Below are positions 1,209 through 21,581 of a stretch of 64,000 nt of DNA, piece by piece. How positions within the stretch are numbered: the first letter of the stretch is position 1; each line of letters begins with the position of its first letter. Below the pieces are notes generated by a model, which saw only the letters and a list, made by a program, of their open reading frames with translations, made no database searches and was not told the origin of the DNA. The DNA lies in NCBI RefSeq assembly GCF_001542625.1, contig NZ_CP016279.1:868001-932000 (forward strand), read 5' to 3'. Origin of the DNA: Streptomyces griseochromogenes. Lineage in GTDB: Bacteria > Actinomycetota > Actinomycetes > Streptomycetales > Streptomycetaceae. Both the position numbers and the translations under genes were made by a program.

Positions 1209-4057
1209 TGCGGTTACCTGAACCTCTCTCGTCCTATGACGTCCTGGAGCAGATCGGCAGCGGTGGGGAAGCGGTCGTCTACCGGGCCCGGGACCGGTCG
1301 GGCCGGGAATGGGCGCTGAAGATCTACCACCAGGAGGGCGCGGCCGACCAACGGGTCTGGAACCGCCTCCGACTGCTCACCCACCGCGCCCTGATGCAGA
1401 TCGAGCACACCGGGCATCTGGAGGACGGGCGCGACTACGAGGTCATGCCGTACTTCCCGGGCCACAGCCTCCACGGGCAGGGCCCGATGCCGCAGGGCGA
1501 ACTGCTCGCGGTGGTGTGCGAACTCATCGGCGGCATCAACCAGTTGCACATCGCCGACATCGTGCACCGCGACCTCAAGCCGTCCAACATCCTCTACGAC
1601 CGCGCCGTAAGGGCCGTGAAGATCGCCGACTTCGGCATCAGCCGGGCACCGCGCCAGCAGACCCGCGTCGCCTGCACCGTCGGATACGCGCCGCCCGAGG
1701 CGTACGACCAGCTCATCACGCCGGCCTGGGACTGGTGGTCGCTGGGAACCATCGTCTACGAGCTGGCCACCGGGGCCGTCCTCTTCGCGGGCCGCAGCTC
1801 CGCGCAGATCGAGGCGCTGGTGCGCAAGGGAGAGGTCACCCACCTCGACAAGCTGCCACCCCGATGGCGAACGCTGTGCACGGGACTGCTGGTTGCCGAT
1901 CCCGAGCGCCGCTGGGGCAGCGGTGAGGCCCTGGCCTGGCTGCACGGGGAGGACGTGCCGGTCGTCGGGGCGGCCGGTACGACCCTGCCGGTCACGGTCC
2001 GCGACCCCGTTCCCGTGAAGCCCGCGGCGGGCCCGCAGCAGCCGAAGGCCGGTCCGGCCGAGCAGCCCGAGGCCAAGGGTTTCGAGTACGACGGCGAGTA
2101 CTACCGGTCCGCACAGGGACTGGCCGCCGCGCTGACCAAGCGGCCCAAACGCGCGGCCGAGATCTTCTTCGGACCGCCCGGTGCCGGCGCCGACCACGAC
2201 GCCCAGTTGCGCGCGCTCGGCACCTGGGCCGGGAAGAACGGGAAGAAACTGCCCCCGCACATCATCTCGGGCAGCCAGGAGCCGATCGTGCGGCTCAACC
2301 ACCTGTTGTACTGGCTCGACCCGATGAGCCCGCCCGTCCTGGACGCCGGACCGCTCCGGCCGGCCACTCTGGTCAGGCTCTGTGTCCTGGCCGGTGAAGC
2401 CGTGGCCACCCCCTCCGATCGCCGGGCGATGGCCGTCATCAGGAGCGGCGATCTGCTGGCGCACTGGGGGCACTGTCCCGGGTTCGAGGGGCTCAAAAAG
2501 GTCCACCGCGCGTGGCGGTCCGGCCTGGCCGAATGGGAGCGGGCCGTCGCCGACCAGGGCCCGCACGTCCAGCGTCTGCTCGAACCCGCGCGGCCGGTCG
2601 TGGACGCGCTCATGCTGCTGGCCCTGCTGCCCTACCCCGGGGCCGAGGGCGCGCTGTGGCGGCGGGCACATGCACAGTCCGCTCCCGCCGGGACCGTGGT
2701 GGACTGGTACGACGCCCTGGTCCAGAGGTTCGGTGGGAGCGGCACCCCGATGGGCATGGTCGTACGGGCCGTCTGTGGGCCCGCCGCGCTGACGGCCGCC
2801 CACGAGAGTGTCGTGGCGAAGCAGAAGGCGAAGAAGGCAGCAGCCACCAAACCCAAGTCGAACACACAACCGAAGGCGCAGCCGGAGGAGCAGCAGCCCA
2901 AAGCACCACCCAAAGCACAGCCGAAGGCGCAGGCCCAGCCCGCCTCCTCGTCGGTCCTCGACTTCCACGGCCAGCACCGCAAGGGCGCAGCACTGGCGCA
3001 GGCGCTGCGGACGCACAAGGCGGAGGCGATGAGCGTCTTCCTCGAGGCGTCCGGTGCTCCCCGCGCGGGCGAGCTGGCGGCATGGCTGCGCACCCTGAAG
3101 GAGACCCCGACGGGCCGTGTCGACTCGCTCGACACGCTTCTCCAGCAACGGCTCGCCGGCGGAGCGAGTACGGATGTGAAGCTGCTGTATCTGCTGCGCT
3201 GGCTCCAACCGGGCGGGGCCGCCCCCTACGGCGGCCGCGACATCACCATGCAGCGAGTCGTCGACGCGTGCGTGACCGTCCTGGGCAAGCCGCCCGGGAC
3301 CAGTGCCCACACCTTCGTGCGGACGCTGGCCGCGCCCCATGCCCTGGACGCCCTGGGCGGCTTCTCGGCCCTCGCCGAGCTGGGGCCCGCGGGGAAGAGG
3401 CTGGTGGAGTTCCAGCGGACGGTCTGGCGCAGTCTGGGACGTCATGGGGTGGCCCCGGCCGAACGCATCGACCGGATACTGGCGGCCGGGTTGCTGCTCG
3501 GTCTGGGCTCGGACCTCGCCCGGAAGAGGCTGATCGAGGCGGCCGAGACGGCGGTCGCGAAGCAGGGACCGCAGAGTGCCTGGTTCGAGCCGGTCCTGGT
3601 AGAGCTGGGCGGACACGGCTCCCGGCAGGGCGCGGCCGTGGAAGCGGCCCTGCTCCCGCTGGCGCGACAGCACGCCATCGCCGAGGCCACGGCGGCCAAC
3701 GCGGCCAAGAAGGCCAAGAAAGCGCAGGCGGCCAAGACAGCAAAGGCGGCCAAGACGGCGCAGACCAGCAAGACGGCCCAGGCTGCCAAGACCACGAAGA
3801 CGGCGAAGAACGCCACTCAGCCGAAGCCCACTCAGCCGAAGCCGTCCCAGCCGAAGCCTCCGCAGGCGAAGGCGAAGAAGGCACAGCCCGCCGGGAGCCC
3901 GCAGCAGAAGGCGAAGAAGACACCGGCCAAGAAGGCGCAGACCGCCGGGAACGCGCAGAAGAAGCCCCAGAACAACGTCGTACAGCAGGCGCAGACGGCC
4001 TCCGGTTCCAAGCTGACCGAGCGCATCAGGGCCTGGTTGAGCAGCCGCGGCCTGTGA
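1208..4057 (+). CDS. Ser/Thr protein kinase with long lysine/alanine-rich tail
   Basis: 949 residues. The N-terminal ~250 residues are a Hanks-type kinase: glycine loop GSGGEAVVY, ATP lysine K38 (ALKIY), catalytic HRDLKPSN with D122, and DFG with D141. No transmembrane segment is visible, so it is probably cytoplasmic, unlike PknB-type receptors. The middle (about 290-520 and 590-830) is globular with a repeated theme (FEYDGEYYRSAQGLAAAL versus LDFHGQHRKGAALAQAL), so it may be a duplicated domain I do not recognise. Two linkers (about 535-590 and 830-930) are extremely rich in K, A, Q and P. The upstream zinc-ribbon/FHA gene overlaps by one base and is its likely partner. Substrate unknown. 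Confidence 0.85.
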   Translation: MRLPEPLSSYDVLEQIGSGGEAVVYRARDRSGREWALKIYHQEGAADQRVWNRLRLLTHRALMQIEHTGHLEDGRDYEVMPYFPGHSLHGQGPMPQGELLAVVCELIGGINQLHIADIVHRDLKPSNILYDRAVRAVKIADFGISRAPRQQTRVACTVGYAPPEAYDQLITPAWDWWSLGTIVYELATGAVLFAGRSSAQIEALVRKGEVTHLDKLPPRWRTLCTGLLVADPERRWGSGEALAWLHGEDVPVVGAAGTTLPVTVRDPVPVKPAAGPQQPKAGPAEQPEAKGFEYDGEYYRSAQGLAAALTKRPKRAAEIFFGPPGAGADHDAQLRALGTWAGKNGKKLPPHIISGSQEPIVRLNHLLYWLDPMSPPVLDAGPLRPATLVRLCVLAGEAVATPSDRRAMAVIRSGDLLAHWGHCPGFEGLKKVHRAWRSGLAEWERAVADQGPHVQRLLEPARPVVDALMLLALLPYPGAEGALWRRAHAQSAPAGTVVDWYDALVQRFGGSGTPMGMVVRAVCGPAALTAAHESVVAKQKAKKAAATKPKSNTQPKAQPEEQQPKAPPKAQPKAQAQPASSSVLDFHGQHRKGAALAQALRTHKAEAMSVFLEASGAPRAGELAAWLRTLKETPTGRVDSLDTLLQQRLAGGASTDVKLLYLLRWLQPGGAAPYGGRDITMQRVVDACVTVLGKPPGTSAHTFVRTLAAPHALDALGGFSALAELGPAGKRLVEFQRTVWRSLGRHGVAPAERIDRILAAGLLLGLGSDLARKRLIEAAETAVAKQGPQSAWFEPVLVELGGHGSRQGAAVEAALLPLARQHAIAEATAANAAKKAKKAQAAKTAKAAKTAQTSKTAQAAKTTKTAKNATQPKPTQPKPSQPKPPQAKAKKAQPAGSPQQKAKKTPAKKAQTAGNAQKKPQNNVVQQAQTASGSKLTERIRAWLSSRGL

Positions 4058-4070
4058 TATCGGTCACCGG

Positions 4071-5348
4071 TCAGGGCGCCTGGGGATCCCGGTGTCCCGC
4101 CACCGCGTGGGCGAGGGGATGCCCCTCGCCCAGGGCGGGCCCCACCCGCTGCCGGAGCCGCACCAGCCGCCGGGCCGCCTGGATCCGTCGTCCTCGCCGC
4201 TCCAGCGTGCGGACGCGCCCGTACAGGGCGGCGAAGAACGCCGCGTGCTCCTGCGCCCGTCCCCCTTCGGCGGTGATGTCGAGCGCGATGTCGCGGAACG
4301 CCTCGTCGGCCTGTTCGCAACAGCCGCGCACGAGCAGCTCCTCCGCCTCCTCCAGGCGCGGCCAGTACTTCTCGGTGAGGCCGTCGTACCGGGGGCCGGG
4401 CACTCCTGTCGGTACGTCCCGTTCGTCGACGCCGTCGGCCGGTGCCGATGCGCCCGGCTGACGTACCGGCTCCCGCACCGGACCGCGGACCGGGCCACCG
4501 ACCGGGCTCCGGCCGAGCCCCTCCAGCGTGGCGAGCACGTCCGGCAGGTGCGGGCGGTCCGCCGGCTCCCGCGTCATCATGTCGCTCAGCAGATCGCAGA
4601 GCGGGGCCGGGGCGTCCGGCCGCCAGTACGACACGGGCGGCGGGGTCTCGTCGAGCACCCGCATCCGAGCCCGCGCGGCGTCCTCGGCGGCGAACGGAGA
4701 CCCGCCCGCGAGGAGCGCGTACAACGTCACCCCCAGGGAGAAGACGTCGGAGCGATGGTCCCCGGGTCGACAGGCCGCCTGCTCGGGGGACAGGTAACCG
4801 GGGGAGCCCAGCACGCCCGCACCCTCCACGGTGAGCGGGGTGGCGCCCGGGCTCGGCCGCGTGACCAGGCCGAAGTCACAGATCTTGACCAGGCCCGCGC
4901 TGCTGATCAGCAGGTTGGACGGCTTGATGTCCCGGTGCGAGACCCCGGCCCGGTGCGCCGCGAGCAATCCGGTCGCCGTCTGCGCGCCCCAGGCCGCGAC
5001 CTCCGCCACCGTGGGCCGCACCGGGGCGGTCATGCGCTCGGCCAGGGACGACCCGGGCACGTATTCCATGACCAGCAGCGGCGTCCCGTCGTGTTCACCC
5101 CGGTCGTGCACCGTCACGATGTGGTTGTGGTGGAGATCGGCGAGGATCTCCACCTCGCGGTCGAACCGCCGGGCCATCATCCAGCGGTATGTGGTCGCAT
5201 CACCGCAGTCCGTGCGCAGGACCTTGACGGCGACGAGCCGGCGTTTCCCCAGTCGGGTGTCCCGTGCCCGATAGACCGTCCCCTGCCCGCCGTGCCCGAG
5301 TTCCCGCTCCACCTCGTACCGGCCGAGCAGCAGGGTTCCGGGTCTCAT
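4071..5348 (-). CDS. Ser/Thr protein kinase
   Basis: 425 residues, Hanks-type kinase in the first ~275: glycine loop GHGGQGTVY, lysine K42, HRDIKPSN with D140, DFG with D158, and an activation segment leading to GSPGYLSPEQ. No membrane helix is seen. A linker with VGGPVRGPVREPVRQP repeats leads to a ~100-residue C-terminal helical region (LEEAEELLVRGCCEQADEAF...) like a small tetratricopeptide-type helical hairpin. The start ATG overlaps the stop of the upstream NYN-FHA gene by 4 bases (ATGA), so the two form one reverse-strand operon. Its 3' end meets the forward kinase gene with only 13 bases between, without an obvious terminator. Confidence 0.88.
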   Translation of the reverse strand: MRPGTLLLGRYEVERELGHGGQGTVYRARDTRLGKRRLVAVKVLRTDCGDATTYRWMMARRFDREVEILADLHHNHIVTVHDRGEHDGTPLLVMEYVPGSSLAERMTAPVRPTVAEVAAWGAQTATGLLAAHRAGVSHRDIKPSNLLISSAGLVKICDFGLVTRPSPGATPLTVEGAGVLGSPGYLSPEQAACRPGDHRSDVFSLGVTLYALLAGGSPFAAEDAARARMRVLDETPPPVSYWRPDAPAPLCDLLSDMMTREPADRPHLPDVLATLEGLGRSPVGGPVRGPVREPVRQPGASAPADGVDERDVPTGVPGPRYDGLTEKYWPRLEEAEELLVRGCCEQADEAFRDIALDITAEGGRAQEHAAFFAALYGRVRTLERRGRRIQAARRLVRLRQRVGPALGEGHPLAHAVAGHRDPQAP

Positions 5349-11800: not shown

Positions 11801-13837
11801 ATGCCTACCTACCACGAGATCATGAGCACCGACCTCTCCGCGCTGACCACCGCGGCCGAGCGCTGGGAGGGCATGGCGGCCGAGTTCGCGAAGCAGGAGA
11901 AGGCGTACCACCGGGATGTGTACGGCATCACGATGGGGCCCGCCTGGACGGGCATGAGCGCGGAGGCCGCCCACGGCCGCTTCGACGTCACGCTCAAGGA
12001 ATTCCGGTACGCGCAGACGGAGGCGAAGGCGATCGCTTCCCTGCTGCGGGACGCGCACGCGCAATTCGCGGAGCTGAAGGGCCGGTTGACGACGGCGCGC
12101 CGGGAGGCGGTGGCGGCCGGCCTGCGGGTCTCGGACCGTGGCCTGGTGAGCGTGGGTCCCGACCATGGCGACGAGAAGCGGGACGAGTCGGCGCTGCGGG
12201 CCTGGCAGCACCGGATCGACCGGGCGGTACGGGACGTGACGGACGCGGACACGGGCGTCCACCTCGCGCTGACGTCGGCGGTCGTGGACTCGGACCCGCT
12301 GGTCGCAGGCCGGGGCTTCAACGCCCGGGCGATGGGGGACATCGAGAAGTACGAGGCGCTGGAGGCGGAGGGAACGCTGGAGAAACTGAGCCGCGGTGCC
12401 CCTGTGCCGCTGCGTGAACTCGCCGAGCTGAAGCGCGTGTTCCGCGACAACTCCGACGACGAGGCGTTCGGGCGCACCCTGCTGGACGACCTGGGTACGA
12501 CGGGCACGATCAGCCTGACGAACGAACTGAACGATCTGATCCATGTGCGGGGCGGCGAGCGGGCCGGCGACTACTCGACGATCGAGTCGGGCCTGGCGGA
12601 CACGCTGGCGACAGCGACGAGGGACACGGACTCGCCCTGGTACAAGCGCTGGCGCGCCGGGATGCGCGGCACCGGCGTCGAGCGATACGCCACGGACGCG
12701 CAGGGGGCGCGGCTGGACAAGGCGGTCGGCTACCAGTCGCTGGTGACTCTGATGAGCAAGGGCCATGGATACGCGCCGCGCATGCTCGAGGACCTCACCG
12801 ACGACATGATCGCGGCGGAGCGGAGGGAGCCGGGGATCTGGCGGGTGAAGGGGGAGTGGGGCGGCAGGCGCGACGGATGGTTCGCCAACGACCCCGTGGA
12901 CGGCGCGCTGGGCATCATGAGCCGTGACCCGCACACCGCCGCGGACTACCTCGGCTCCGATGCCCGCATGAAGTACCTGATGAAGGAACGGGACTGGAAC
13001 GTGGTCCTCCACGAACACGAGGGCCCCAAGGTCAGCACATACGCCCCTGCCCTGGACAAGGACGACCGCAACGGCTTCGGCAAGGCCCTGCAGGCGGCGA
13101 CGACGGGGATCGATCCGTCCGATGGGCGCGCGCACTATGTCGCGCATACGAAGCAGAACGATGCGATCTTCAGGTCGACACTGGGGTATCTGGCGGACAG
13201 CGGCGACAAGTTTCCTCCCTCGCTGAGGCAGCCCATGGCCCACATTCTCGTGAACCATGGGGAGACTGTGCACGCCTCTATGAGCGAGATCGACATGTCG
13301 AAATCCCCCCTGGACCAGGGCAACCTCTTCGAAGTCGCGAAGCAGGTTTCCAAGGGCAAGGATGCCTATAGTGCATTGAACGGAGGGTTAAACCAGGCGA
13401 TGGTGTCGAGCATCCATGGCGACCACTCCAAGTCGGCAGAATCCCTGCTTCGCGCGGGCCGTACGGTCGGTTTTCTGGAGGAGGCGCGAATTAAGGCGCA
13501 GGGTGACCCCAAAACGGCCGAATTTGAAGCGAAGCCGGTCTTCGATAAGGCGATCAGCTATATTCCGGTCGCGAGTGATGATGTCCAGGCGAGTTTCGAC
13601 TATGTCACGGAGAAGTGGTTGGAGGATGAACAGAGGAGATTGGACGAGCAGCAGACCAAACACAACACTGAGGCATACGAAGCAAGGAATGGGCAGTTGA
13701 TGGCTCTTGCGGACGAATGGCACAAGGCTCATGTGTCGCACGGTCAGGCGAGCTTCGGCACCAGGGCTATGATCACCGAGGCATCCGAGAGCGGCGCCGC
13801 GCAGGCCGCTGGCGTTTCAGGAGAGCAGCCCAAGTGA
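11801..13837 (+). CDS. Large protein with N-terminal WXG-type domain; TTA codon
   Basis: 678 residues, no signal peptide. Residues ~1-110 look like a WXG100 fold: two amphipathic helices around WTGMS, then a long heptad-rich helix (ELKGRLTTARREAVAAG). The remainder is a long, charged, mostly helical region I do not recognise; a streptomycete family of type VII-like secreted proteins (perhaps DUF6571) is possible. Residue 530 is encoded by TTA (13388-13390), so translation should need the bldA tRNA. The last third (from about 13130) is visibly richer in A/T and in codons such as TTT, ATA and AAA than neighbouring genes. GTGA overlap couples it to the lipoprotein gene. Confidence 0.72.
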   Translation: MPTYHEIMSTDLSALTTAAERWEGMAAEFAKQEKAYHRDVYGITMGPAWTGMSAEAAHGRFDVTLKEFRYAQTEAKAIASLLRDAHAQFAELKGRLTTARREAVAAGLRVSDRGLVSVGPDHGDEKRDESALRAWQHRIDRAVRDVTDADTGVHLALTSAVVDSDPLVAGRGFNARAMGDIEKYEALEAEGTLEKLSRGAPVPLRELAELKRVFRDNSDDEAFGRTLLDDLGTTGTISLTNELNDLIHVRGGERAGDYSTIESGLADTLATATRDTDSPWYKRWRAGMRGTGVERYATDAQGARLDKAVGYQSLVTLMSKGHGYAPRMLEDLTDDMIAAERREPGIWRVKGEWGGRRDGWFANDPVDGALGIMSRDPHTAADYLGSDARMKYLMKERDWNVVLHEHEGPKVSTYAPALDKDDRNGFGKALQAATTGIDPSDGRAHYVAHTKQNDAIFRSTLGYLADSGDKFPPSLRQPMAHILVNHGETVHASMSEIDMSKSPLDQGNLFEVAKQVSKGKDAYSALNGGLNQAMVSSIHGDHSKSAESLLRAGRTVGFLEEARIKAQGDPKTAEFEAKPVFDKAISYIPVASDDVQASFDYVTEKWLEDEQRRLDEQQTKHNTEAYEARNGQLMALADEWHKAHVSHGQASFGTRAMITEASESGAAQAAGVSGEQPK

Positions 13838-14924: not shown

Positions 14925-15105
14925 CGGCTCCTCACCCCCGTGGCTCACCCCAGTGGCAGCTCGGCTGCTCATCGTCAAGATTTCATTGCAGAGCGTGGCC
15001 GCCCCGAGAGGACCGCTGCTCTTCGCGGGCGTGCGGACACGCCGCTCCACGACGGCTCACCTGAGGAACCACAAAGGGTGTCGACATGACAGATCCAGGC
15101 CGCTC

Positions 15106-16239
15106 ATGCGTTATTCGTCCAGGTTCGGCATAGCCTCGCTCTCCGTCGTCGCCGCCGCGCTGCCGGCGGCCGGCCTGGCGCAGCCGGCGCCCGCGGCCGT
15201 GAGGACGTCCACCGCCGCCCCGTCCACCGCCCCCACGCATGCCACCGCCGCCGACGGCGGTGGCATGCCGGCCCGCGTCACCACGTTCTCCACGGGTTGG
15301 CAGACGCCCTGGGGCATCTCGTTCCTGCCGGACGGGCGCTCGGCACTGGTGACCGAGCGGCTCTCGTACCAGGTCTACCGCCTCTACCGCGACGGTACGA
15401 AGAAGCGGGCCGGCGAGGTGCCGTACACGGTCCCCGAGCCCTACACGGACGGCCCGGGCGGGCTGCTGGGTGTCGCTCCGTCGCCGACCTGGAACGGCAC
15501 GACGGACAAGCAGGTGTTCTTCGTGCACACCACGGAGACCGAGACCCGGGTCGTGAGGATGGACTACGACGGCACGTCACTCAGCGGCTACACGCCCGTG
15601 CTCACCGGCATCAAGCGGGTCGGGAACCACAACGGCGGCACGATCGCCTTCGGCCCCGACGGATACCTCTACGTCTCGACCGGCGAGGCCTACCAGCCCG
15701 AGCTCGCGCAGGACAAGGACTCGCTCAACGGAAAGATCCTCCGCATCACCAGGACCGGAGCCGCGGCCCCCGGCAATCCGTTCGGCAACCGCGTCTACAG
15801 CTACGGCCATCGCAATCCGGAGGGACTGGCCTGGGACCGCAAGGGCCGGCTGTGGTCGGTGGAGATCGGCAACCAGACGTGGGACGAACTCAACCTGATC
15901 AAGCCGGGCGCCAATTACGGCTGGCCCGTCTGCGAGGGCCCCTGTGAAGTCAAGGGCATGACCAACCCGAAGACCACCTTCACCCCGGAACAGGGCGTGC
16001 CCTCCCAGCTCGCCGTCGTGAACAACGTGCTGTACGTGTCCTCGCTGCGCGGCCAGCGGCTGTGGCGCGTCCCGATCGACGGGGACCACGAGCGCGTCGG
16101 CACCAAGACCGACTTCTACGCCGGCCGGTACGGCCGGCTGCGCGCCATCGCCAAGGTCCCCGGCACGAACGAACTGTGGCTCGGCACCAGCGACCTCGGA
16201 TACGGCAAGGACAAGATCCTCCGCGTGTCCGTCAAGTGA
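15106..16239 (+). CDS. Secreted PQQ-dependent aldose sugar dehydrogenase
   Basis: 377 residues. Signal peptide MRYSSRFGIASLSVVAAAL then an Ala/Thr/Pro-rich linker. The catalytic part is a soluble glucose dehydrogenase (GSDH) beta-propeller: TPWGISFLPDG, GGLLGVAPSP, HNGGTIAFGPDGYLYVSTG (the histidine serving as base in the family), YSYGHRNPEGLAW (Arg-Asn contacting PQQ) and NYGWPVCEG. It should oxidise sugars outside the membrane with PQQ as cofactor. The ATG at 15106 is the only start that gives a signal peptide. It stands 48 bases before pqqA, so enzyme and cofactor genes likely form one unit. Specific sugar unknown. Confidence 0.88.
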   Translation: MRYSSRFGIASLSVVAAALPAAGLAQPAPAAVRTSTAAPSTAPTHATAADGGGMPARVTTFSTGWQTPWGISFLPDGRSALVTERLSYQVYRLYRDGTKKRAGEVPYTVPEPYTDGPGGLLGVAPSPTWNGTTDKQVFFVHTTETETRVVRMDYDGTSLSGYTPVLTGIKRVGNHNGGTIAFGPDGYLYVSTGEAYQPELAQDKDSLNGKILRITRTGAAAPGNPFGNRVYSYGHRNPEGLAWDRKGRLWSVEIGNQTWDELNLIKPGANYGWPVCEGPCEVKGMTNPKTTFTPEQGVPSQLAVVNNVLYVSSLRGQRLWRVPIDGDHERVGTKTDFYAGRYGRLRAIAKVPGTNELWLGTSDLGYGKDKILRVSVK

Positions 16240-16287
16240 CCGCCGCCCCAGCAGGAAAGCACCCTCCGGAGAAAGGACGCAGCACCC

Positions 16288-16428
16288 ATGAACGAAACCA
16301 CGGAACAGGTCAAGCCGGTCGAGCGGATCGTCTCGGAGGACGCGGGCACCACCACCTGGCAGGCGCCCGGCTACGAGGTCGTCGACACCGCGCTCGAGGT
16401 CACCGCCTACTCCCTCGCCTCTCGCTAG
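16288..16428 (+). CDS. pqqA: PQQ precursor peptide PqqA
   Basis: 46-residue peptide beginning MNETTEQVKPVERIVSEDAG and ending in the PqqA pattern TWQAPGYEVVDTALEVTAY, then SLASR. The Glu-x-x-x-Tyr in LEVTAYS is the pair crosslinked by PqqE to make PQQ; the upstream W-x-x-P and E-V also fit the family. A good ribosome site (GGAGAAAGGA) precedes the ATG. Most PqqA are 22-39 residues, so this one has ~20 extra at the N terminus. It is followed by a pqqB remnant, then pqqC, pqqD and pqqE. Recognition rests on the motif plus context. Confidence 0.87.
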   Translation: MNETTEQVKPVERIVSEDAGTTTWQAPGYEVVDTALEVTAYSLASR

Positions 16429-16436
16429 CCGCTGCC

Positions 16437-16546
16437 GCATACCTCAACAACACAACGCCCTCGTCGCCCCGGCGGCGTCCGAGCGCGAGCCGCTCGCGCC
16501 GCCGGGCATCGAGGCGGCGTACGACGGGATGGTGATCGAGCTGTGA
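16437..16546 (+). pseudogene. pqqB: C-terminal remnant of pqqB
   Basis: Only the last ~36 codons of a pqqB are visible between pqqA and pqqC. Reading YLNNT in one frame (16440-16453) and, after a 1-base loss, NALVAPAAS...PPGIEAAYDGMVIEL in the next gives the typical PqqB end (H-L/I-N-N-T-N ... G-I-E-V-A-Y-D-G-M). A complete PqqB is about 300 residues; the N-terminal ~85% including its metal-binding histidines is absent, and no start serves the remnant. The TGA still overlaps the pqqC GTG, the trace of the original coupling. PqqB is the iron-dependent oxygenase/hydroxylase of the pathway. Confidence 0.8.
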
Positions 16547-17265
16547 CCACGGCACTCGCCCCGCTCGCGGAGCCCTGGAGCCCCGCGGAGTTCGAGGCAC
16601 GACTGCGCGCGGTGGGGGAGGAGCGGTACCACGACCGCCATCCCTTCAACCTCCGGATGCACAGCGGCGATCTCAGCCCGGACGAGCTGCGCCGCTGGAT
16701 CGTCAACCGCTTCCACTACCAGCGCCACATCCCCGTCAAGGACGCCCTGATCACCGCGAAACTGAACACCTCCGCGCTGCGCCGGATGTGGCTGCGGCGC
16801 ATCCAGGACCATGACGGGCAGCAGCAGGGCGAGGGCGGCATAGAGCGGTGGCTGCGGCTCGGTGAGGCGGCCGGCCTGAACCGCGAGACGCTGCTGCGCG
16901 CCGACACCGTTCTGCCGGGTGTACGGCTGGCGGTGGAGGGATACGTCAACTTCTGCCGCCTGCGCCCGCCCCTGGAAGCCGTCGCCGCGTCGCTGACCGA
17001 ACTGTCCGCACCGGACCTGATGCGCACCCGCATCGACGCCTTCGAACGCCACTACCGGTGGATCGAACCCGACGGCCTCGCCTACTTCCGCGCCCGTGTC
17101 TCCCAGGGCCGGCGCGACAGCCGTGAGGCGCTCGACCTCGTGCTGAGCTGGGCTCGTACCCGGGACGACCAGCAACGGGCCGTGGCCGCGCTGCGCTTCA
17201 AATGCGACGTCCTGTGGTCGCTGCTCGACGCCGTGGACCGCGCGGGCCACCGGGAGCGGGCATGA
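16543..17265 (+). CDS. pqqC: Pyrroloquinoline-quinone synthase PqqC
   Basis: 240 residues. Cofactor-free oxidase that performs the last ring closure and eight-electron oxidation to PQQ. Family motifs are all present: RYHDRHPFNLRMHSG, WIVNRFHYQRHIPVKDA, RRIQDHDGQQQGEGGIERWL, VLPGVRLAVEGYVNFC, SLTELSAPDLM and HYRWIEPDGLAYFR. Length is normal. GTG start overlaps the stop of the pqqB remnant (GTGA), and its own stop overlaps the pqqD ATG (ATGA). Confidence 0.95.
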   Translation: MTTALAPLAEPWSPAEFEARLRAVGEERYHDRHPFNLRMHSGDLSPDELRRWIVNRFHYQRHIPVKDALITAKLNTSALRRMWLRRIQDHDGQQQGEGGIERWLRLGEAAGLNRETLLRADTVLPGVRLAVEGYVNFCRLRPPLEAVAASLTELSAPDLMRTRIDAFERHYRWIEPDGLAYFRARVSQGRRDSREALDLVLSWARTRDDQQRAVAALRFKCDVLWSLLDAVDRAGHRERA

Positions 17266-17534
17266 GCGCGGAACCCGAAACCGACTGGCGGCCCGTGCCG
17301 GCCCCGGCCATCGTGCGCCGGCACGACCCCGTGCGCGACGCCGACCTGCTGGTCCTCCCCGAACGCGTCGTCGTCCTGACCGGCCGGGCCGAAGCCGTCC
17401 TCGCCCTGTGCGACGGCACGCGCAGCGTCCGCGGCATCGTCGACGAACTGGCCGCACGCTACCCCGGCGCCCCCGTGGCCACCGACGTCCCCCCTTTCCT
17501 GGAGCGCCTGCGCGAGGAGGGCTGGCTCCGATGA
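17262..17534 (+). CDS. pqqD: PQQ peptide chaperone PqqD
   Basis: 90 residues, usual PqqD size. It binds PqqA and presents it to the radical SAM enzyme PqqE. Conserved features: W-R-P near the start, VLPERVVVLTGRAEAVLALCDGTRSV, and ELAARYPGAPVATDVPPFLERLREEGWL, the small winged-helix fold. ATGA overlap with both neighbours (pqqC stop, pqqE start) shows tight coupling. Confidence 0.93.
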   Translation: MSAEPETDWRPVPAPAIVRRHDPVRDADLLVLPERVVVLTGRAEAVLALCDGTRSVRGIVDELAARYPGAPVATDVPPFLERLREEGWLR

Positions 17535-18643
17535 CCCCCGCCGCGTCCGCACCCGCCCGCCCCTGGGCGCTGCTGGCCGAACTCACCCATGCCTGTCCGC
17601 TGCACTGCGGGTACTGCTCCAACCCGCTGGAGCTGACGCGGCGCTCGCGCGAGCTGACCACCGCGCAGTGGACGGACGTGATGCGCCAGGCGGGGGAGTT
17701 CGGCGTGGTCCACACCCATCTCTCGGGCGGCGAGCCGCTGCTGCGCCGGGACCTCGCGCAGATCGTCGCCGCGGCCGAGGCCGCCGAGATCTACACCCAG
17801 CTGGTCACCAGCGGTGTGGGCCTGGACCGGGCCCGGCTGTCCGCGCTCGCCGCCGCCGGACTGCGCAGCGTCCAGCTGTCCGTCCAGCACGCCGACCCGC
17901 GTGCCTGCGACCGGATCGCCGGGCGCCGTTCCTTCGCCGAGAAGGAACGGGCCGCCGAACTCGTACGGGCCGCCGGCCTCCCCCTGGGCCTCAACGTCGT
18001 CCTGCACCGCGGGAACCTCGACGCCGTCGACGCCCTCATCGAGCTGGGCCTGTCCTGGGGCGTGGACCGCATCGAACTGGCCAACACACAGTTCTACGGC
18101 TGGGCCCTGCTCAACCGCGCCGCGCTGCTCCCCACCCGTGACCAGCTCGCCCGGGCCCGGGACGCCGTGGAGCGCCGGCGGGAGATGCTCACCCCGGACG
18201 GCCCCGAGCTGGTCTGGGTCGTCCCCGACTACTTCGACGGTGTCGCCAAGCCGTGCATGGGCGGGTGGGGAGCGGTCTCGCTCACTGTCACCCCCGACGG
18301 CACCGTCCTGCCGTGCCCGGCCGCGGCCACCCTGCCGGACCTGGACCCCCCGAACATCCGTGACCACCCGCTGGCCTGGATCTGGGACCACTCCACGGCG
18401 TTCACCCGCTACCGCGGGACGGGCTGGATGCCCGAACCCTGCCGCGGCTGCTCCCACCGCGAGGCGGACTTCGGCGGCTGCCGCTGCCAGGCGTACGCCC
18501 TGACCGGCGACGCCACCCGCACGGACCCCGCGTGCCGGCTGTCCCCGGACCACGGTCTGATCCGGTCACTGGCCGACGACGGCAGGGACGGGACGAGGGT
18601 GATCAGACGAAGGGCACCGAGCCGGACCGAGACCGTTGGGTAG
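17531..18643 (+). CDS. pqqE: PqqA peptide cyclase PqqE (radical SAM)
   Basis: 370 residues. Radical SAM/SPASM enzyme that makes the Glu-Tyr carbon-carbon bond in PqqA. The SAM-cluster motif is CPLHCGYC, followed by LSGGEPLLRRDL (SAM-binding GGE). The C-terminal SPASM part supplies cysteines in KPCMGGWG, LPCPAAA, EPCRGCSHRE and GGCRCQAYAL. Length and order agree with known PqqE. It ends the pqq genes; a perfect 11-bp stem terminator follows at 18815. No pqqF/pqqG peptidase genes lie nearby. Confidence 0.95.
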   Translation: MTPAASAPARPWALLAELTHACPLHCGYCSNPLELTRRSRELTTAQWTDVMRQAGEFGVVHTHLSGGEPLLRRDLAQIVAAAEAAEIYTQLVTSGVGLDRARLSALAAAGLRSVQLSVQHADPRACDRIAGRRSFAEKERAAELVRAAGLPLGLNVVLHRGNLDAVDALIELGLSWGVDRIELANTQFYGWALLNRAALLPTRDQLARARDAVERRREMLTPDGPELVWVVPDYFDGVAKPCMGGWGAVSLTVTPDGTVLPCPAAATLPDLDPPNIRDHPLAWIWDHSTAFTRYRGTGWMPEPCRGCSHREADFGGCRCQAYALTGDATRTDPACRLSPDHGLIRSLADDGRDGTRVIRRRAPSRTETVG

Positions 18644-18814
18644 AGCGGTCTCCAGGGGGACGGGTCGGCGTAGGTGACCACAGAGATGAGCCATGGGCAC
18701 CGTGCTCGTACCGCCCCTGCTCGTACCGCCTCCGCCTGCGTGGCCTCCTGAGCGTGGTGTCCGCGGACGGGGCCTCGGGCGCTCCGGAGGCGACTCGCGC
18801 CGGTCGCAGCGGTG

Positions 18815-18853: not shown

Positions 18854-19402
18854 TCAGGGGAGCACCTGTTCACCCGAGCCCTGCATGATCTCCGATCCTG
18901 AGCACCGCAGCTCCAGCCACGTCGGCAGGTGCTTCTCGGCGTTCTCGGCCAGGCGCCAGTTGTACTCGCCGTGGGCGATCTCGTAGGCGCGTCGTGCGCC
19001 CAGCACCCGGTAGAAGCTCTGCTCGATGAAGAGGCTGTGCACACCGCCCAGGCAGGGGACGGGCGCGCCTTCCCTGGGGCGGAGGGGAACGCAGCGGCGG
19101 CGGTGGTGGTCCAGCATCCGCCTGATTTCCTGTTCTTGCGCGGACGGGTCGGTGGTGCGCTCCCGCTTCAGCCGGTCACGGCTGATCCACATACGCCTCC
19201 ACCAGCGCGGCCTCCTGGCAGTGGAGTCCGAAGACGGGATCTCGTCCACGTCGAGCACGATCAGGACGATCAACGGGAGACGGGTCAGCAGCCAGAGCGG
19301 CGGCCCCCACAGCCACTGCACGCAGTAGCGCGTCCAGAGCCGCGAGGCCGACTTGGGCGCTTGGGGGCCCCAGGCGCGGTTCGCTGCTTCCGTGGAGGTC
19401 AT
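18854..19402 (-). CDS. Small membrane protein at the end of a type VII-like cluster
   Basis: 182 residues. One hydrophobic stretch (WLWGPPLWLLTRLPLIVLIV, residues ~29-48) predicts a single membrane helix or short hairpin near the N terminus; the rest is basic and soluble (RRPRWWRRMW, HHRRRCVPLRPRE). No family recognised. Its ATG overlaps the stop of the 476-residue putative secreted protein by 4 bases, so it is made together with it and could be an immunity, anchoring or export partner; that is inference from context only. Confidence 0.65.
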   Translation of the reverse strand: MTSTEAANRAWGPQAPKSASRLWTRYCVQWLWGPPLWLLTRLPLIVLIVLDVDEIPSSDSTARRPRWWRRMWISRDRLKRERTTDPSAQEQEIRRMLDHHRRRCVPLRPREGAPVPCLGGVHSLFIEQSFYRVLGARRAYEIAHGEYNWRLAENAEKHLPTWLELRCSGSEIMQGSGEQVLP

Positions 19403-20829
19403 GACAGCCCCAGCCCGCGGTCGAGGATGCCCTTGTACTGCTCGTACTTGCCGTGCACCTCGTCGGAGAAGGCCGTCTCCGCCTTCTCCACCAGCTTGTA
19501 TCCGCGGTACGCGGCCTCGGGGGCACGCGAGACCCACGAGGTGGGGTCGATGAACTTCTTCCCGTCGCCGTGCACCACGGCATCGGCCAGAGCGGGGATC
19601 TTGCGCAGCGGGGTGCCCTCGATGAGCTTCGGGGTGAGGTGCTGGTCGAGCCACCTCACGGGGCTGATCAGCGGTCGCTCGTAGCGGACGGCGTCGTTGA
19701 ACACGCGCTCCGAGGCCATGGCGAAGCGGCCCTTGAGGGAATCCGCGGTGACCCGGAAGACGCCCTTCTCCTCGCCGAACATCCCGAGGAGCTTCTTCGA
19801 CCCCACAGTGATGTCGGCCTTGCCCGCCTTCCTGGCGATTTCCACGATGCGGTCGGCCGCCTTGAAGGAGTCGGCCCCTATCTCCACCCCCCTGAAGGTC
19901 TGCCAGGCCACTTTGCCGCCCTTGATGAGGTCACCGAAGGGCACGAAGCCGACGAGGTCGAGACCGATGTCGGCCCAGGACCCCTTCTTGGCCCCGGCGG
20001 CCCAGCCCACCCCGTGGAACGCGAGGGCGCCGGCGTTCAGCACGCGGCCGAGGATCTCGAAGACGGCGGCGCCGATGATCGTCTCGGAGAAGACGATGGC
20101 CAGGACGTCGCACGCGGCGGCAGCCATGCCCAGCCAGTCGCCGATCTTGTAGATCGAGTCCGCGTGCTTCTGGATCCAGTGCCACAGATCGCCCGCGAGG
20201 TCCTTGATCTGGTCGCCGATGCTCGACAGCAGGTCGCCGAGCTTGTCGAGCAGGGACTCGTCGGGTGCGACCTCGGCGGCCCTGCGGATCAGCTTGGCCG
20301 CGGCACGGGCCGCCTCGCCGTGGTGGGTCAGCAGCCTCTGTGCCTTCTTGATGATGGCGTTCAGCTCGGCCTGGGCGTCGTTCACCCGCGTCGTCGCGTG
20401 GTCCAGGCGCTGCTGTGCGTCGTGCAGGGCCGAATCCGTGTCGAAAGTACGGCCCGCGAGCTTCAGGTCCGGGTTGTTCTCCGCGGCCGTCAGCGCCTTC
20501 CGGGCCGCGGCGGCCTCGTCCTCGTAGTGGCGGGCCAGTGTCTGGAACTCCTGCAGGCTCGTCTCCCAGCCGTGCAGCGCGTGCGCCGCGTCGGCCAGCG
20601 AGCTGTGCCCGACGGCCAGGTACTTCGGCAGGGAGCCGGTCTTCTCGGCGAAAGCCGATGCCGCCTCGCCCGCCCAGGCCGCGTCCGCCTTGCCCAGCCG
20701 GGTCAGCGTCGCGTGCGCGTCGTGGAGCTGCTTTCCCACGCTGGTCAGGGCGGTGACCAGGTGGTGCACCGACGCGGGTACGCCGGGTGCGGGGTCGAAG
20801 CCGAGTGCCTCGAAGGTCTGGGTGCTCAT
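19399..20829 (-). CDS. Putative type VII-secreted protein (WXG-type N terminus, membrane-active middle)
   Basis: 476 residues, no signal peptide. Residues ~1-130 match the layout of actinobacterial T7SS-signal domains: LGFDPAPGVPASVHHLV, W-A-G in the helical turn (ADAAWAGEAASAF), LP...SLADAAHALHGWE and a long coiled-coil. A middle segment (about 255-300, MAAAACDVLAIVFSETIIG...) is strongly hydrophobic. The C-terminal ~170 residues are charged and unrecognised; no toxin motif is evident. It lies third in a four-gene reverse cluster starting with a WXG100 gene. The ATG at 20829 fits the domain start. Confidence 0.75.
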   Translation of the reverse strand: MSTQTFEALGFDPAPGVPASVHHLVTALTSVGKQLHDAHATLTRLGKADAAWAGEAASAFAEKTGSLPKYLAVGHSSLADAAHALHGWETSLQEFQTLARHYEDEAAAARKALTAAENNPDLKLAGRTFDTDSALHDAQQRLDHATTRVNDAQAELNAIIKKAQRLLTHHGEAARAAAKLIRRAAEVAPDESLLDKLGDLLSSIGDQIKDLAGDLWHWIQKHADSIYKIGDWLGMAAAACDVLAIVFSETIIGAAVFEILGRVLNAGALAFHGVGWAAGAKKGSWADIGLDLVGFVPFGDLIKGGKVAWQTFRGVEIGADSFKAADRIVEIARKAGKADITVGSKKLLGMFGEEKGVFRVTADSLKGRFAMASERVFNDAVRYERPLISPVRWLDQHLTPKLIEGTPLRKIPALADAVVHGDGKKFIDPTSWVSRAPEAAYRGYKLVEKAETAFSDEVHGKYEQYKGILDRGLGLS

Positions 20830-20852
20830 GGGAGTCGGTCTCCTCGGCGCGA

Positions 20853-21581
20853 TCAGTAGGAGCTGAGGGAGGAGGGGGCATCGGACCCCTCGTCGGCTGC
20901 CGGGGCATCGGCCTCGCCGAAGGAGACGGTGTCGGCGATGTCCGCGAGGACCGCCTGGTAGTGGTAGAGGTCCTGGACGTCGGGCGTGCTCAGGCAGAGC
21001 AGCAGCAGCCGGTCCTCGTCGGGGAACGGCAGCCAGACCTCGATCCGGACGAAGAACTGTTCCTGTTCGCCTCCCGGAAGCTCCCACACCGCGCGGGACC
21101 CGACGATGCGTACGACCGCGGGTCCGGCCGGGAGGGCCACCGGCTGGACCTCGCCCGCCTCACCGTTCCACGCGCCCTTGTCCAGCACCTCCGCGATGCC
21201 CGCGGCGGTCAGATGCGGGTCGGGGTTCTCCATCTCGCGCACGGTGACGGTGAGCGTGGCGCGGCTGATGCGCTCGGGCGGCTCGGAGCCGTCCGAGCTG
21301 CCGCCGATGGGGAAGATGCCGAGCGCGTTGTAGACGGCGCCGCCCGCGACGAGGTCCTGGGCGTTCGCCTCGTACATGGCCGCGGTCAGCGCGCGCAGGG
21401 GTCCGAGCTCCTCGCGCTCGCCCCAGTAGTCCCGGGCGAACTGCTCCAGCTGCTCTTCGTAGGCGTCCTCGTCCTCCCCGATACCGAGGGGGACGGCGTG
21501 GAACTCGGACTGGAGCTGGAAGCGGAACCCGGGCGGCGCGGTGTCGGCGGCCTCGGGCTCCTCGGTTATGGGCGCCGTCAC
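20853..21581 (-). CDS. Hypothetical protein in a WXG100 cluster
   Basis: 242 residues, soluble and acidic (ends ADAPAADEGSDAPSSLSSY), no signal or membrane segment. Predicted alpha/beta with strands such as RATLTVTVREME and RLLLLCLSTPD. Not a family I can name; in type VII loci such genes are often chaperone- or EspG-like, but no motif proves this. GTG start overlaps the stop of the upstream WXG100 gene (GTGA), showing translational coupling, and the next gene begins 23 bases after its stop. Confidence 0.68.
   Translation of the reverse strand: MTAPITEEPEAADTAPPGFRFQLQSEFHAVPLGIGEDEDAYEEQLEQFARDYWGEREELGPLRALTAAMYEANAQDLVAGGAVYNALGIFPIGGSSDGSEPPERISRATLTVTVREMENPDPHLTAAGIAEVLDKGAWNGEAGEVQPVALPAGPAVVRIVGSRAVWELPGGEQEQFFVRIEVWLPFPDEDRLLLLCLSTPDVQDLYHYQAVLADIADTVSFGEADAPAADEGSDAPSSLSSY

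Follow-up and report, generated by a model that had tools for sequence, protein, structure and literature searches.

The pqq operon of Streptomyces griseochromogenes described here retains only the end of pqqB, between pqqA and pqqC genes that are whole, and the same chromosome carries a full-length pqqB that stands far from any other pqq gene. The reading proposed, to which a probability of about 0.78 is assigned, is that the PQQ pathway of this strain would be split, with the solo PqqB supplying both of its B-less clusters (pqqACDE) in trans and the redundant operon pqqB having been lost. Comparison with other Streptomyces indicates that redundant copies of pqqB have been lost more than once, in part reciprocally.

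According to excerpts of PMC10906245, PqqE together with PqqD cross-links a Glu and a Tyr of the precursor peptide PqqA; the resulting product is processed by a protease and hydroxylated by PqqB, the Fe-dependent hydroxylase of the pathway, and PqqC finishes PQQ. The pqqB gene is placed among the required genes in excerpts of PMC11858620 and PMC8533503. Among titles and the opening parts of abstracts, a scope outside which most subscription papers lie, no description of strains without an operon pqqB was found.

The pqq operon of the window and its pqqB remnant

The window is a stretch of 64,000 nucleotides, positions 868001-932000 of the single 10.76 Mb contig that makes up the whole S. griseochromogenes genome. 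The features of its pqq locus are as follows.

15106..16239, plus strand: GSDH, a glucose/sorbosone-dehydrogenase-like gene with a secreted-looking product, a possible PQQ user (PF07995, 203.7 bits)
16288..16428, plus strand: pqqA, precursor peptide of 46 residues with the core E-x-x-x-Y as EVTAY (TIGR02107, 20.7 bits)
16429..16440, plus strand: gap of 12 bases from the pqqA stop to the shard, left edge of the deletion of about 793 bp (alignment to six intact relatives, match coordinates)
16441..16546, plus strand: pqqB remnant, the final 107 nt minus one base, body decayed (86-87% identity to the pqqB of relatives)
16519..16546, plus strand: final 28 nt of the remnant, undecayed, overlapping the start codon of pqqC at GTGA (no mismatch to the consensus built from the 11 nearest clusters)
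16543..17265, plus strand: pqqC (TIGR02111, 286.5 bits, cut-off 240; 91/91 near-invariant residues kept)
17262..17534, plus strand: pqqD (TIGR03859, 63 bits, cut-off 46; 28/28 near-invariant residues kept)
17531..18643, plus strand: pqqE, radical SAM (TIGR02109, 489.5 bits, cut-off 381.35; 137/137 near-invariant residues kept)

The locus resembles the known pqqABCDE operon in the order of pqqA, pqqC, pqqD and pqqE and in the sugar-dehydrogenase-like gene that precedes them; the PqqA core is in place, and pqqC, pqqD and pqqE are intact. It differs in that its pqqB is reduced to 106 bases, the only full pqqB lying elsewhere on the chromosome. The four other pqq genes, which a preliminary description of this DNA had considered whole, all pass the curated NCBIfam cut-offs; pqqA, which ends in TAG, does so only just (20.7 vs 20). 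No RNA element was matched at the pqqA-pqqC junction in an Rfam scan of 15000-18700 at the gathering score.

The same description had reported a pqqB cut down to a C-terminal shard with a 1-base frameshift, and alignment to the pqqB genes of relatives bears this out. Its end point, 16546, stands, and its start, 16437, lies about four bases early. The sense strand of the shard corresponds to nt 794-900 of a 900-nt pqqB in the nearest relatives. All 66 full in-operon pqqB genes match it at 68-87% identity, 65 of them to their last base, and no match of these genes to the shard was found at any other part of pqqB. Six alignments at base level show a single missing base, in the Asn-Thr-Asn stretch, and no further gap within the shard. 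When its two translated pieces are joined, they align with TIGR02108, the PqqB model, solely at the C-terminal end (positions 265-298 of 298, E 6e-5). Chance similarity to pqqB is ruled out by this match and by those to all 66 in-operon genes. A DNA search of the genome with the shard returned the shard itself and one weak match of 40 bases.

The comparison with relatives carrying the full operon, suggested beforehand, gave a uniform picture. In the 11 nearest clusters, with PqqC proteins 86-91% identical, a full-length pqqB lies just upstream of pqqC in 11/11, at the place of the shard, and therefore about 793 bp of the pqqB of the window have been lost. The GSDH gene upstream of pqqB, as well as pqqD and pqqE, are likewise present in all 11, and pqqA was found in 10. 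On a tree of PqqC and PqqE the window cluster is the sister of these 11 (support 93, quick method). The best 80 PqqC relatives listed all come from Streptomyces except for one Streptosporangium.

Measured by the consensus sequence of the 11 closest intact genes, the shard has decayed. Of the 44 sites of codon positions 1 and 2 in its body, 10 differ from that consensus, where no single one of the 11 genes differs at more than 3 (range 0-3; binomial P 1e-7), and at codon position 3 the change (1/21) is like that of the 11 (1-2); the argument rests on this close set, since the 11 changes of the shard lie within the spread of all 66 intact copies (0-12). PqqC, PqqD and PqqE together keep 256/256 near-invariant residues, and their genes are about as far from those of the relatives as the relatives are from one another (nucleotide identity window-relative and relative-relative: pqqC 0.897 and 0.888, pqqD 0.814 and 0.828, pqqE 0.869 and 0.859). 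For the short pqqA the two values are 0.823 and 0.846, and its codon positions 1 and 2 are somewhat more diverged in the window (0.817 vs 0.860 among relatives). This pattern indicates that the pqqB loss in the operon is real and not fresh. A full pqqB hidden at the junction by a collapse of some 850 bases in assembly or sequencing, a caveat of the preliminary description, could look like a tidy deletion inside the gene accompanied by a frameshift of one base. The pqqB end beside a miscalled junction should, however, be conserved to the usual degree and not decayed next to undecayed pqqC, pqqD and pqqE, and such a collapse is therefore rejected as the explanation. The genome is moreover a single contig, and different pqqB remnants lie at the same place in other species; a complete gene at this junction is thus extremely improbable.

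The last 28 bases of the shard, where the pqqB stop and the pqqC GTG start overlap, carry no change from the consensus (the 11 intact rows carry 1-3), and they are probably retained as the translation start of pqqC. Three other clusters with pqqB loss (loci L091, L092 and L136) also keep the last 21-30 bases of pqqB. The end is unmatched in L196, the match stops a few bases short in L130, and no pqqB match at all was found in the L027, L202 and L210 clusters. The keeping of the pqqB 3' end is not a general rule.

As a side observation, tuf (end 11222) and rpsJ (start 22447), named from their translations, lie about 11 kb apart in the window, with the pqq operon between them. The same interval holds two long genes, WXG100/secretion-toxin-like by reading, at 11801-13837 (plus strand) and 19399-21087 (minus strand).

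The solo pqqB and the second B-less cluster of the chromosome

A second pqqB elsewhere in the genome, the check that had been recommended, was indeed found at 6.58 Mb. A profile search at E <= 0.001 gave exactly one pqqB, full-length, at 6576527-6577408 on the minus strand; none was found near the window at this threshold, the only one of the genome being 5.7 Mb away. It scores 348.4 bits with TIGR02108 (cut-off 245), covering model positions 1-297 of 298, and 93.6 bits with the metallo-beta-lactamase-like domain PF12706 (gathering score 27). The gene thus matches the full model and, over its full length, solved PqqB proteins (crystal structures 3jxp, 4z5y and 1xto; 3jxp at E 7e-56). In the conserved stretches D-x-E-x-D-H, MGH and HLNNTNP, 20 of 22 positions equal the in-operon consensus, and the others (24 and 27) are variable ones. 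The protein is 38-46% identical to the in-operon PqqBs compared.

Codon positions 1 and 2 of the solo pqqB are more identical than position 3, both against seven close solo relatives (0.93-0.94 and 0.71-0.80) and against four further ones (0.84-0.90 and 0.58-0.73), which indicates that the gene is under purifying selection. Its neighbours are genes for a membrane-like protein without a Pfam match, an SseB-domain protein, a glyoxalase-like protein and a MarR regulator. Since these recur at 16, 34, 36 and 37, respectively, of 40 lone-pqqB loci compared, its own included, the place of the solo gene is old and mostly fixed.

A tree of 64 PqqB proteins places the solo genes in a clade apart from in-operon PqqB (support 100/100, branch 0.51); it comprises full or near-full solo proteins and only part of the in-operon rows, and its 23 rows labelled in-operon include L193 of genome G007, a solo gene. 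The solo PqqBs thus differ from those known so far in forming a separate clade, and their conserved locus contains no further pqq gene. Two lone genes, of G339 and G378, are of in-operon type. The closest neighbours of the solo clade in the tree include the PqqBs of L221 and L222, two clusters whose pqqB has a downstream position.

The residues that hardly vary in in-operon PqqB were scored as motif residues in the solo clade. Where the genome has a B-less cluster, 15/17 proteins have them intact; the figure is 4/16 where pqqC is absent (P 0.0004) and 0/4 where all clusters are complete, counts that omit G007, G196, G154 and G105 and set aside G339 and G378. One altered form has LAD for LNN and lacks two residues before a conserved His. 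It is found in 4 of the 12 altered cases without pqqC, with a similar form (LTD) in G091, and also in G231, G343, G087 and G121, all of which have pqqC. The altered-form loci are L181-L188 and L191 (G121, G087, G128, G001, G357, G073, G091, G231 and G343), and L193 of G007 joins this group by tree position. This altered form may reflect slow decay, or else a paralogue that has acquired another function. The solo pqqB itself may have an additional role, because four genomes without pqqC keep one with an intact motif.

The chromosome holds a second cluster, at 3.32 Mb, in the order pqqA-C-D-E (pqqC at 3324447, pqqE at 3325585). Its pqqA runs nearly straight into pqqC, and no pqqB match was found between the two. 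Of the three GSDH genes in the genome, one lies about 9 kb from this cluster.

Solo pqqB, B-less clusters and pqqB loss across Streptomyces

The distribution of these genes was surveyed in 392 Streptomyces genomes, with the best 6 and best 5 candidates scored per genome; counts may be low on this basis, and neighbours can be hidden by contig ends. At least 102 pqqC loci were counted, 76 with a pqqB within 3 kb and 26 without. Among the best candidates per genome, a lone pqqB with no pqqC beside it was present in 18/22 genomes with a B-less cluster (one of them of in-operon type, G339, and two with an altered motif, G231 and G343), in 6/66 with complete clusters only (two fragments, G154 and G105, included) and in 19/304 without pqqC (two fragments, G007 and G196, included). 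The first group against all the rest gives a Fisher P of 7e-16, a value not corrected for descent. The count excludes eight pqqC rows that fell short of the curated cut-off, as well as pqqB rows that were weak or represented a second half, and it includes some pqqB fragments (G154, G105, G007, G196, G204 and halves of split genes).

The four B-less genomes without a lone pqqB are diverse. G217 has a complete second cluster, G181 is the case of a dead-looking cluster described below, and G282 has a pqqC-like gene with no pqqD or pqqE match nearby. In G243 the B-less cluster is diverged and no pqqB was found, its pqqC lying 1.2 kb from a contig end.

For 44 named genomes it was predicted beforehand that the 11 with an intact solo pqqB would carry a B-less cluster. 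Such a cluster was found in 9/11, the answer being already known for 7 of these 11, and in 3/33 of the others (G424, G426 and G433). Of the four open cases, two agreed with the prediction (G448 and G459) and two did not, G434 and G446 carrying an intact solo pqqB but no B-less cluster, so that the prediction adds little weight. In G424 and G426 the B-less cluster is accompanied by no solo pqqB, only by the pqqB of a complete operon. The 44 loci were taken from the 80 nearest PqqC loci, 7 of them having been chosen as B-less, and the figures become 3/5 vs 2/32 when these 7 are removed. This set is not independent of the 392 genomes, with which 13 of the 44 share coordinates.

The remnants themselves differ between lineages, which indicates that pqqB was lost from operons several separate times. 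Streptomyces olivochromogenes A53 (L130) keeps a C-terminal piece shorter than that of the window, S. filipinensis (L091) a stretch of the N-terminal part together with the final bases of the gene, and G188 (L196) an N-terminal piece; all three have an intact solo pqqB. In L092 only the last 21 bases remain. Weak traces are left in S. catenulae (L136); this species also carries a pqqB at a distance of 20 kb from its pqqC, and that gene resembles the solo type more (60% vs 44%). On the tree of PqqC and PqqE from 95 clusters (quick method), the label complete or B-less needs 7 changes, some of which may be regains, and 5 of them are forced by well-supported branches. This tree left out L114, L129 and L213 (from the same genomes as L201, L210 and L092) as well as L092 and L216. 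In it 17 B-less clusters, among them the second cluster of S. griseochromogenes, form one clade with many species.

Two further strains show other outcomes. Streptomyces sp. PKU-EA00015 (L092 of G433, the same place as L213) has a dead-looking pqq cluster at 3837-5079, in which the E-x-x-x-Y core of pqqA is changed and pqqE is a weak match of 27 residues; no pqqB match was found in this genome, and the cluster could serve as a negative control. Streptomyces sp. NRRL S-1022 has an intact pqqB in its operon and a solo pqqB (L233, 4040-4873) that is broken by two frameshifts. This is the reciprocal of the window case, and the two frameshifts may be sequencing errors.

A proposed split PQQ pathway and its alternatives

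Under the proposed split of the pathway, the ancestral pqq locus of the window would have been a GSDH-pqqABCDE operon of the ordinary kind. The deletion, some 800 bp long, starts directly behind pqqA, reaches nt 793 of pqqB and left only the pqqB end; it would have been tolerated because a diverged solo pqqB was present on the same chromosome. The shard no longer encodes a protein, its last ~28 bases being kept probably as the pqqC translation start. Once PqqA has been cross-linked and processed, the solo PqqB would hydroxylate the product in trans, both for the window operon and for the second pqqACDE cluster. Its hydroxylase activity, its action on these precursors and the production of PQQ are predicted from the gene sequences.

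The preliminary description had left three options, namely that the strain makes no PQQ, obtains PqqB from elsewhere or uses a PqqB-independent route. The supply of PqqB from elsewhere is favoured here, because an intact and constrained solo pqqB, well above its cut-off (348 bits vs 245), is present and such genes co-occur with B-less clusters. A dead or dying operon, yielding no PQQ from this locus and with pqqCDE drifting, is consistent with the loss of its pqqB, with excerpts of PMC4263746 in which a Rahnella pqqB deletion left no detectable PQQ, and with the dead-looking cluster of a relative, Streptomyces sp. PKU-EA00015. The decay of the shard is long-standing, yet PqqC, PqqD and PqqE keep all their near-invariant columns and have diverged from relatives about as much as the relatives among themselves; with pqqCDE still constrained while the shard decayed, the option of no PQQ is disfavoured and a dying operon unlikely.

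The route without PqqB, in which the B-less clusters would make PQQ or a PQQ-like cofactor and the solo pqqB would be unrelated, draws on the single clade of 17 B-less clusters from many species, on the small PQQ amounts that an older report, as cited in excerpts of PMC2294125, gives for a pqqB knock-out, and on G343 and G243, which hold B-less clusters without a normal PqqB. G343, whose only solo PqqB is of the altered LAD form, is an exception to the split-pathway reading as well, and so are G243, G424, G426, G434 and G446. Other points that weigh against that reading are the 38-46% identity of the solo PqqB to in-operon PqqBs, the intact-motif solo pqqB of four genomes without pqqC and the somewhat diverged pqqA of the window. 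Against such a route stand the co-occurrence of solo pqqB with B-less clusters, the conservation of its motif in those genomes and the role of PqqB described as the Fe-dependent hydroxylase (excerpts of PMC10906245). Given the solo pqqB, no such route is needed, and it is considered quite unlikely.

A broader version of the split pathway, in which the solo PqqB would be a shared Streptomyces hydroxylase for several pqqACDE clusters at a time, diverged ones with different PqqA peptides among them, and its LAD sister form would have taken up a new reaction, is put forward as a tentative and rather doubtful extension, the more so as the LAD form also occurs in genomes that have pqqC. The genomes bearing on the shared hydroxylase are that of S. 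griseochromogenes, with two B-less clusters, and G350, with three B-less pqqC loci and one pqqB.

In Methylorubrum, pqqFG is located apart from the main pqq cluster. The present arrangement is similar in that a pathway gene is encoded away from the main cluster. It differs in that pqqB, in the form of a diverged paralogue, is the one located separately, and in that the clusters have lost, or never show, a copy of their own.

The repeated loss of the operon copy, leaving the diverged solo copy, amounts to a natural test of what is required of PqqB, the hydroxylase of PQQ synthesis, and of whether it can act in trans. It also matters for annotation. PQQ calls based on a complete pqqABCDE operon alone would miss such strains, and calls based on any pqqB would wrongly include genomes with a solo pqqB but without pqqC (19 of the 304 genomes lacking pqqC here, some with fragments only).

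Unusual cluster arrangements were also seen in the survey. The three pqqC loci of G350 (L206, L208 and L217), two of them strongly diverged, have no adjacent pqqB, the genome holding one solo pqqB. The diverged clusters L221 (G380) and L222 (G078) are ordered pqqA-C-D-E-B, with pqqB downstream of pqqE.
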